Notes under the pieces: model-generated
Seen by the model: only the letters and a program-made list of their open reading frames with translations
Told to the model about the DNA's origin: nothing
The model's database searches: none
Source of the DNA: Bacteroidota bacterium
Lineage (GTDB): Bacteria > Bacteroidota > Bacteroidia > AKYH767-A > 2013-40CM-41-45
DNA: 64,000 nucleotides
Assembly (NCBI GenBank): GCA_004295015.1
Contig: SHNE01000001.1
Span: 124,001-188,000, forward strand
Reading direction: 5' to 3'
Shown here: positions 53,411 to 54,926 of the stretch, in pieces
How positions within the stretch are numbered: position 1 is the stretch's first letter
How the letters are laid out: each line of letters opens with the position of its first letter
Position numbers and translations under genes: made by a program

Positions 53411-53571
53411 GGTAAATGTTCTTTATCCGATCTGATTCTGATCGTGTTTATTTCATGTAAAAGTCCGAAAAAAATATGGAATAATTGGGCCATTTACTAT
53501 AGAGCAGAGGAATTGCCACCTCCTTTAGGCTATGGGTACATGACTCAAAGCCGTTTGGCTTAAGCTATATC

Positions 53572-53729
53572 AATTGCCACCTCCCTTTAGGGCGTGGGTA
53601 TATATTGCGGAGACTGTTTGGCTTTAGCCACATCATATTACCGGTAAACAGCTCATTGCAGGGATATGATTTGGCTAAAGCCGATGGCTGCTAATTCATT
53701 CTTCCACGCCCTGAAGGGACGTGGCAATT
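53572..53729. repeat. REP pair module A
   Basis: First of three 158-bp inverted modules; bounded by AATTGCCACC at left and CGTGGCAATT at right. One base differs from copies B and C in the left arm (CACCTCCC instead of CACGTCCC). Confidence 0.9.
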
Positions 53730-53936
53730 TGGTTGAATCTTCGATTCATTTTTTTAAACCCTTTGATATATCCTGAGCATTTCTATTTTACAAACTCAAG
53801 TCAACAAAACGAAATTTCCTCGTCTAGAAAAAGTACGGCATAAACCCTAAAACCATTTGGCTTTAGCTAAATCAATTGCCACGTCCCTTTAGATCGCGGG
53901 TTTGTGGTACAGCAACAGATTGGCTTTAGCCAAATC

Positions 53937-54094
53937 AATTGCCACGTCCCTTTAGGGCGTGGGCGTGTATTGCAAAGGTTGTTTGGCTTTAGCCACATCA
54001 TATTACCGGTGAACAGCTCATTGCCGGGATTTGATTTGGCTAAAGCCGATGGCTGCTAATTCATTAATCCACCCCCTAAAGGGACGTGGCAATT
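53937..54094. repeat. REP pair module B
   Basis: Second 158-bp module. Its right arm is altered (CCACCCCCTAAAGGGACGTGG), weakening that hairpin. Copy-to-copy distance from A is 365 bp because of an extra half-module. Confidence 0.9.
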
Positions 54095-54237
54095 AGGTTG
54101 AATCTTCGATTCAATTTTTTAACCCCTTTGATATATCCTGAGCATTTCTATTTCACAAACTCAAGTCAACAAAACGAAATTTCCTCGTCTAGAAAATTGC
54201 GGCATAACCCCTAAAACCATTTGGCTTTAGCCAAATC

Positions 54238-54395
54238 AATTGCCACGTCCCTTTAGGGCGTGGGTATATATTGCGGAGACTGTTTGGCTTTAGCCACATC
54301 ATATTACCGGTGAACAGCTCATTGCCGGGATTTGATTTGGCTAAAGCCGATGGCTGCCAATGCATTCTTCCACGCCCTGAAGGGACGTGGCAATT
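54238..54395. repeat. REP pair module C
   Basis: Third 158-bp module, 301 bp from B. After its right edge the spacer is shortened (GATTCAACTC then TCTAGAAAA), as if the spacer's middle was deleted. The RAYT-like gene ends 82 bases on. Confidence 0.9.
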
Positions 54396-54476
54396 TAGTT
54401 GAATCTTCGATTCAACTCTTCTAGAAAAAAAATGAAATTTCATACAGAACAATTCACTTGCTTCATCTTAAAATTT

Positions 54477-54926
54477 TTATTCAATTGAATTGCGTCCGAA
54501 GGAATTTGGAAAATTATTTGCTCTTAAAAACTCTTCATACTCCTCGTTAAAAGTTTTGCGTTTATGATGCTCCTCCTGATTGAGAATATAGGCCCGTACT
54601 TTATCAATTGCAGAATGACTGACAGACAAAGCAATATATTCATCCTGCCAACCAAACTTCTCCCTCGTCAACCTATTATTGTTTACCCAATAGGACGACT
54701 CGCCTTTAATCAGCATCGCTATATTCGATAGGGTTTGCTCCTTCCCAAGAGAAACTATAAGATGAATATGATCCGATACACAATTTAACGTATCAATATA
54801 GATTCCTTTCTTGATACTATTAGATTTTATATGCTCTAGCAGTTTTGGCTTCAATTCATTGCTTATTAAGTGCCGTCTGTTTTTCGTCGACCAGATGAAA
54901 TGAATTAACACGTTTGAATAAGGCAT
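54477..54926 (-). CDS. REP-associated tyrosine transposase (IS200/TnpA-like)
   Basis: 149 aa from the ATG at 54926 (MPYSNVLIHFIWSTKNRR). HUH endonuclease elements are seen: DHIHLIV (His-x-His), and the Tyr in KVRAYILNQEEHH, which attacks DNA. The IHFIWSTKNR-type start and NRLTREKFGWQDEYIALSVS are typical of single-domain transposases of the REP-associated (RAYT) group. No IS200 end sequences flank it, but the palindrome array next to it is what such enzymes act on. It starts 31 bases past dprA on the same strand. It looks intact. Confidence 0.9.
   Translation of the reverse strand: MPYSNVLIHFIWSTKNRRHLISNELKPKLLEHIKSNSIKKGIYIDTLNCVSDHIHLIVSLGKEQTLSNIAMLIKGESSYWVNNNRLTREKFGWQDEYIALSVSHSAIDKVRAYILNQEEHHKRKTFNEEYEEFLRANNFPNSFGRNSIE

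Follow-up and report, generated by a model that had tools for sequence, protein, structure and literature searches.

We analysed a 64,000-nucleotide stretch of contig SHNE01000001.1 from a Bacteroidota bacterium (hereafter the window), in which an array of hairpin-rich repeats adjoins a Y1 (HUH) transposase gene, tnpA (Table 1). The array consists of three full modules of ≈156 bp together with half-units, and each module is built of two compound ends in mirror orientation (ATTG...CAAT). A compound end has the order 5'-ATTG, outer hairpin, 21-22 nt and inner hairpin (GGCTTTAGCC); in the window the outer hairpin is CCACG(T)CCC-TTTA-GGGCGTGG and the inner hairpin GGC-TTTA-GCC. This anatomy, i.e., three modules that are mirror pairs of two-hairpin units, plus half-units, beside a transposase gene, had been described in the initial annotation and is seen alike in the sequence, in the repeat search and with the covariance model. 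The module size given there, 158 bp, is adjusted here to a unit of about 156-158 bp from ATTG to CAAT.

Table 1. Features of the tnpA locus and its repeat array (positions refer to the window; R1, covariance model).
Feature	Position	Strand	Basis
Half-unit, one compound end (outer and inner hairpin), degenerate	53512..53572	+	R1, 35.9 bits, E 5e-8
Full module 1, two inverted compound ends	53573..53728	.	R1, 70.5 bits (+) and 75.3 bits (-); inverted repeats I8, I19
Spacer 1, near-identical to spacer 2	53730..53873	.	Direct repeat D1
Terminator-like palindrome TTGAATCTTCGATTCA(T) and subsequent T-run, just outside module 1	53733..53749	.	Sequence
Half-unit, one compound end	53875..53937	+	R1, 57.5 bits
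Full module 2	53938..54093	.	R1, 72.7 (+) and 71.9 (-) bits
Spacer 2, ending in inner-hairpin fragment	54095..54237	.	Sequence, repeat search, R1
Inner-hairpin fragment at end of spacer 2	54196..54238		R1
Full module 3	54239..54394	.	R1, 75.3 (+) and 73.6 (-) bits
tnpA, 149-aa Y1 HUH transposase of subclass-1.2 type (DHIH, WQ, YILNQEEHH)	54477..54926	-	Pfam, tree, AF2, flanks

Direct repeat D1 spans a module and the beginning of the ≈143-bp spacer, and its copies 1 and 2 show 92% identity over 277 bp. The earlier reading of near-identical spacers and tandem copying is supported. Treated as single-stranded DNA, one module (module 3) folds end to end with -50 kcal/mol (z = -10.4; none of 200 shuffled sequences was as good), and a single end forms the two hairpins given above (z about -2.1 to -2.5). 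A search against Rfam returned only a spurious match to MIR8562, far below the gathering score. The palindrome TTGAATCTTCGATTCAA lies a few bases outside every full module, always on the same side (53733-53749, 54098-54114 and 54399-54415), and a T-run follows it after modules 1 and 2. The same relation between palindrome and module recurs in the array on contig C1 of this genome (L023), as if the putative terminator were part of the amplified unit.

The tnpA gene is intact, and the DHIHLIV and RAYILNQ motifs noted earlier are both present in its product, which matches Pfam Y1_Tnp (E = 2e-25) and is the sole such match in its own 3.86-Mb, 99.98% complete genome. The designation "RAYT-like" is not supported: the protein scores 31.7 bits with the NCBIfam RAYT model NF047646 (cut-off 80) and 65.6 bits with the NCBIfam IS200 model (cut-off 55), and the latter model matches all 56 aligned relatives at E ≤ 0.001. 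In a tree of 80 rows the window clade (42 rows) forms one group (100/100), the 26 Bacteroidota RAYTs form a separate group, and the 12 IS200 proteins are positioned on the side of the window clade. Records labelled Neomarinimicrobiota, Cloacimonadota, Chlorobiota and Ignavibacteriota (L105, L124, L123 and L125) are interspersed among Bacteroidota in this tree, which suggests either transfer between phyla or mis-binned contigs. Both HUH histidines, Y113, Q117, H120 and H121 are invariant in the alignment of 56 proteins, and the motif NP(L/V)(R/K)xG is absent after the catalytic tyrosine (YILNQEEHH in the window, YIxNQEEHH as consensus of the 56 relatives). Between related tnpA copies dN/dS ranges from 0.05 to 0.21, and on this measure the relatives' genes are under purifying selection. 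The AF2 model (pLDDT 88) has ISDra2 and IS608 as its best PDB matches by E-value; the monomer fits the RAYT structure 4er8 at 2.7 Å vs 4.5-16 Å for IS200 chains, and this better fit could mean that the tyrosine helix acts in cis, which a monomer prediction cannot decide. The window protein is not a true RAYT, and its clade lies nearer to IS200.

Quentin et al. (2018; PMC6006769) describe TnpA_Y1 subclass 1.2 as a low-copy group of Bacteroidetes and Cyanobacteria for which REPs are listed as "no", which generally lacks the typical terminal secondary structures of IS200 and does not share IS properties. By its motifs and its place in our own tree, rather than by those authors' HMM, the window protein appears to match this subclass: the likeness covers DH[IV]H, WQ and Y---Q--HH, a length of ≈148 aa, occurrence in Bacteroidetes and low copy number. 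The difference is that we find two-hairpin inverted ends and gene-less modules where neither REPs nor terminal structures were reported, a finding that corrects the reported trait of the subclass and not the membership of the window protein. The automatic REP search of Quentin et al. required GT[AG]G (PMC6006769) and would miss the tetranucleotide NTWG described below.

When 84,980 species genomes were scanned, 80 loci of relatives were obtained. Among 61 genes with ≥44% identity, GGCTTTAGCC is present ≤180 bp upstream and in the expected orientation in 48, and its complement is present downstream in 38 (control windows, 17 of 2940). Hairpins with any loop cluster in the 200 bp to either side of the gene, where their density is 4.0-4.5 per kb; farther out than ≈600 bp it drops to about 0.1-0.5 per kb. 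Their loops are TTTA/TTCA upstream and TAAA/TGAA downstream, i.e., the ends are inverted. Under strict criteria we counted 37 two-hairpin ends in ≈40 kb beside the genes vs 10 in 1.09 Mb of strand background, with a distance from loop to loop of 35-49 nt (mode 36-37). The pairing percentage of these ends is partly circular, since stems were picked for pairing, and fairer tests are the background rate and the 46 different outer stems found over 83 ends. Throughout this set the tetranucleotide directly 5' of the outer stem reads N-T(90%)-W(100%)-G(84%), and the 3' side of the stem is unconserved.

Inverted two-hairpin ends bracket the gene in relatives across Bacteroidota, Ignavibacteriota and Chlorobiota, and distant members (Spirosoma, Ignavibacteriota, Chlorobiota) have the same layout with other stems, e.g. 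CCAACGGA-TTTA-TCCGTTGG with AACCAG-TTCA-CTGGTT. When gene-bearing copies at different sites are compared, homology starts within 6 nt of NTWG in 62 of 78 pairs and stops within 6 nt of its mirror in 29 of 35. Homology between such copies stops at the ends, which therefore bound an element of ≈566 bp, the median length of the gene-bearing unit. In several relatives (L063-L075) the tnpA coding frame runs at its end into the downstream inner hairpin. Some loci (L064, L065, L069, L070, L115 and L116) have, upstream of the left end, a stack of truncated stubs like ATTGCCACGACCTTC that leads into a complete AATTGCCACGACC... end, a pattern suggestive of repeated entry of elements into their own outer hairpin or of slippage there.

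The genes dprA and kbl are close neighbours in seven relatives of the family (56-161 bp apart in the six that were measured, with both gene ends placed). In the window the gap between them is 1547 bp and the insert is tnpA plus the array, the empty site of the same genus being defined by gene order and not alignable at base level. The start of tnpA is only ≈32 bp from dprA, and because no inner hairpin lies within reach of the gene on that side, the window tnpA, unlike its relatives, is without bracketing ends of its own. Another site of variable occupancy is found in Cyclobacterium jeungdonense, where a 2.1-2.7-kb cassette of tnpA and array is missing at a site occupied in three congeners; in this species tnpA lies at another position of the same contig.

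In the own genome the compound-end covariance model detects 39 ends, all on contigs C1, C3 (the contig of the window), C23, C26, C30 and C40; this number, spread over 4-6 places, is a minimum because arrays are cut by contig ends. The starts of contigs C1, C26 and C30 and the end of C23 fall within arrays or adjoin them, from which we conclude that the arrays broke the assembly. The end of C23 and the start of C1 carry the same subfamily, and another is common to the starts of C26 and C30; each pair may be the two sides of one array. Altogether the genome holds three sequence subfamilies, with outer stems GTCCC/GGGC, GGCC/GGCC and GCCC/GGGC. Most ends sit in tandem arrays, that on C1 having six modules with a 241-bp period, and C40 carries one solitary degenerate module between genes. 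An exact 21-mer was found in this genome in module clusters only, and the reversed control pattern gave 0 matches. The single genome of the same genus gave no match to the compound-end model, and those genomes of the family that did (G001, G005 and G006) also carry related genes.

Since most ends are in tandem arrays at few places, much of the copy number in this genome could be due to local recombination. Another possibility is that the modules are cognate to TnpA, but that the arrays here are now spread only by homologous recombination and slippage, the transposase being inactive or tamed for another job. The tandem (module + spacer) periods, the few dispersed loci and the loss of its own ends by the window gene are all consistent with it. 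We nevertheless consider it doubtful, if a real possibility, given that the gene is intact with all catalytic residues, that its relatives are under purifying selection, and that a solitary module on C40 and three subfamilies occur within one genome.

Gene-less modules are also present in other genomes. The pattern GGCTTTAGCC-N30..60-GGCTAAAGCC occurs in 22 of 392 Bacteroidota genomes, and the reversed control pattern in none. The protein is present in 18 of the 22 module-bearing genomes vs 151 of the 370 others (Fisher p 1.6e-4), and its closer relatives in 12 vs 46 (p 7.5e-6), where both p-values are optimistic since the genomes are not independent by descent. In four of the 22 the protein was not detected, and gene loss is a possible reason. 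The Saccharicrinis sp. LH_M88 MAG has 12 dispersed gene-less modules on 11 contigs, bounded by ATTGCC...GGCAAT; insertions inside a gene were sought among them and none was found, i.e., all seem intergenic. Each of four Cyclobacterium species has 8-16 gene-less modules; compared with two of the other species, one carries an additional (spacer + module) unit in tandem. The core of the module varies from species to species and does not correspond to the element with the gene simply deleted. A dispersed insertion of a single module, paired with an empty site resolved at base level, was not found.

As the genes of relatives are bracketed by the same ends, and homology stops there, the modules would be gene-less derivatives. 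Our favoured explanation, which we hold with considerable confidence, is that they are REPIN/MITE-like derivatives of a family of small IS200-related elements, mobilised by TnpA and amplified in tandem. The modules might instead be terminators or regulatory hairpins of the host with the transposase as a chance neighbour, and they are indeed intergenic and each is followed by a terminator-like palindrome in the window; against this stand the bracketing of the gene throughout the phylum, the common tetranucleotide and the co-occurrence across genomes, and we give this idea practically no credence. The initial proposal of a REP/BIME (REPIN)-like array, with repeats that belong with the neighbouring transposase, is supported. 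Of the two observations that the initial annotation said would count against it, one was not made, since copies of the module are present at other places in the genome and in related genomes; the other was, in that the protein groups with IS200-type enzymes whose genes have ends of their own.

Several traits are shared with RAYT/TnpA_REP and their REPs, BIMEs or REPINs (REPtrons, e.g. in E. coli): extragenic GC-rich hairpins in inverted doublets, a 5' tetranucleotide (NTWG at the position of GTAG in REPs), arrays, a gene kept by selection, and a single full-length Y1 gene adjoining them, with three doublets within 1 kb. The differences are the other protein clade, the missing NPxRxG motif, two hairpins per end, NTWG in place of GT[AG]G, gene-bearing mobile units in relatives, and a lower copy number, as the minimum count of 39 ends is below the abundance of REPs and REPINs (>100 copies per genome). 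True RAYTs are frequent among Bacteroidota, where 40 of 148 genomes exceed the NCBIfam cut-off, and their subclasses 2.4 and 2.6 are already known from this phylum (PMC6006769). The flanks of class-2 RAYTs from the same phylum show a TTYA compound end in one of 52 cases, and several have single perfect hairpins in inverted pairs. At five such loci (L209, L211, L212, L222 and L226) these hairpins are long, e.g. TTGTCACGGTCGTACCGTGACAA, and this type of end differs from that of the window clade. True RAYTs being common there, occurrence in Bacteroidota is no novelty as such; what does look new is the two-hairpin, REP-like end of subclass 1.2. A canonical RAYT/REPIN system, i.e., a class 2 TnpA_REP with GTAG REPs in a Bacteroidota genome, would fit the inverted doublets, the tandem arrays, the 5' tetranucleotide, the one stable gene copy with low dN/dS and the alignment of the AF2 model to 4er8. 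It is nonetheless very improbable, as the protein falls outside the RAYT clade (100/100) and below the RAYT cut-off, and lacks the NP(L/V)(R/K)xG motif after the tyrosine (PMC2817692), while the repeats have two hairpins per end, a different tetranucleotide and far fewer than 100 copies.

In IS200/IS605 elements each end has a single imperfect hairpin that is recognised on one strand, and terminal inverted repeats are absent (PMC2817692). IS608, ISDra2 and their MITE-like derivatives resemble the family described here in having a Y1 HUH transposase and hairpin ends, in an element size of ≈0.6 kb and in being the best PDB matches; here, in contrast, the hairpins are double, inverted and mostly perfect, TnpB is absent, and at either end the tetranucleotide sits at the base of the outer hairpin. 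An ordinary IS200/IS605 insertion sequence with MITE-type derivatives, and nothing more, would agree with the position of the protein on the IS200 side of the tree, its score over the IS200 cut-off, and gene-bearing elements with their own ends where homology stops. We think this rather unlikely, since compound ends were found at 0 of 24 IS200 flanks of the same phylum, the copy number is low, the genes persist at one site through speciation, and the subclass is described as lacking IS properties (PMC6006769).

TIRYT transposases are described as falling into four groups, which are distinguished by amino-acid signatures of their own (Di Nocera et al. 2013; PMC3733652). TIRtrons are similar in that terminal inverted repeats, in part double palindromes, lie on both sides of a Y1 gene and also form repeat families; this comparison is by description and not by protein sequence, and the window clade may overlap with TIRYTs. 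The CGTC-tagged repeats (PMC3733652), which are without a known transposase, were rejected as a match, as their loops and stems differ by description (stems of 8-9 bp with AT at the first two positions, CCA tails). A literature search for the hairpin core gave chance matches only, and the match in PMC2817692 is most likely the H. influenzae REP GGGCTTtAGCCC in its REP table.

Returning to gene-less derivatives mobilised by TnpA, we infer the following mechanism. The complete element of ≈566 bp consists of NTWG, outer hairpin, ≈20 nt, inner hairpin and tnpA, followed by both hairpins in inverted orientation. In IS200-type TnpA a dimer provides two sites for hairpin binding, as established for IS608 and ISDra2, and with hairpins about 37 nt apart from loop to loop one dimer could thus seat on one end. 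On single-stranded DNA (lagging strand), TnpA would recognise both hairpins of an end, reading their TTYA loops together with NTWG, and would cut and rejoin at the outer edge of NTWG. Because the ends are inverted, the TTYA loops lie on the top strand at one end but on the bottom strand at the opposite end, an arrangement shared with BIMEs and not with IS608. The enzyme may act in cis on gene-bearing copies and in trans on gene-less ones, and modules seeded in this way would multiply locally as tandem (module + spacer) units. In the window the gene has lost its bracketing ends and would remain next to arrayed copies of its targets, which resembles a REPtron.

REP-like two-hairpin ends, both gene-bearing and gene-less, look new for a subclass listed without REPs, although a prior description could have been missed. 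With these ends, a transposase subclass described as having none is now assigned a DNA partner, the ends are defined and can be tested at the bench, and a recurrent class of intergenic hairpins in Bacteroidota is explained. Moreover, the data address the question of how RAYT/REPIN systems originated from mobile IS200-type elements, as autonomous elements of ≈566 bp and a stay-at-home gene with gene-less arrays represent two states side by side in one phylum-wide family. Finally, we see an even chance that subclass 1.2 represents a second lineage of REP-associated transposases, derived from IS200-like elements independently of the class-2 RAYTs and with the compound two-hairpin end as its hallmark, and that the genome studied here captures the transition between an autonomous element and a REPIN population.
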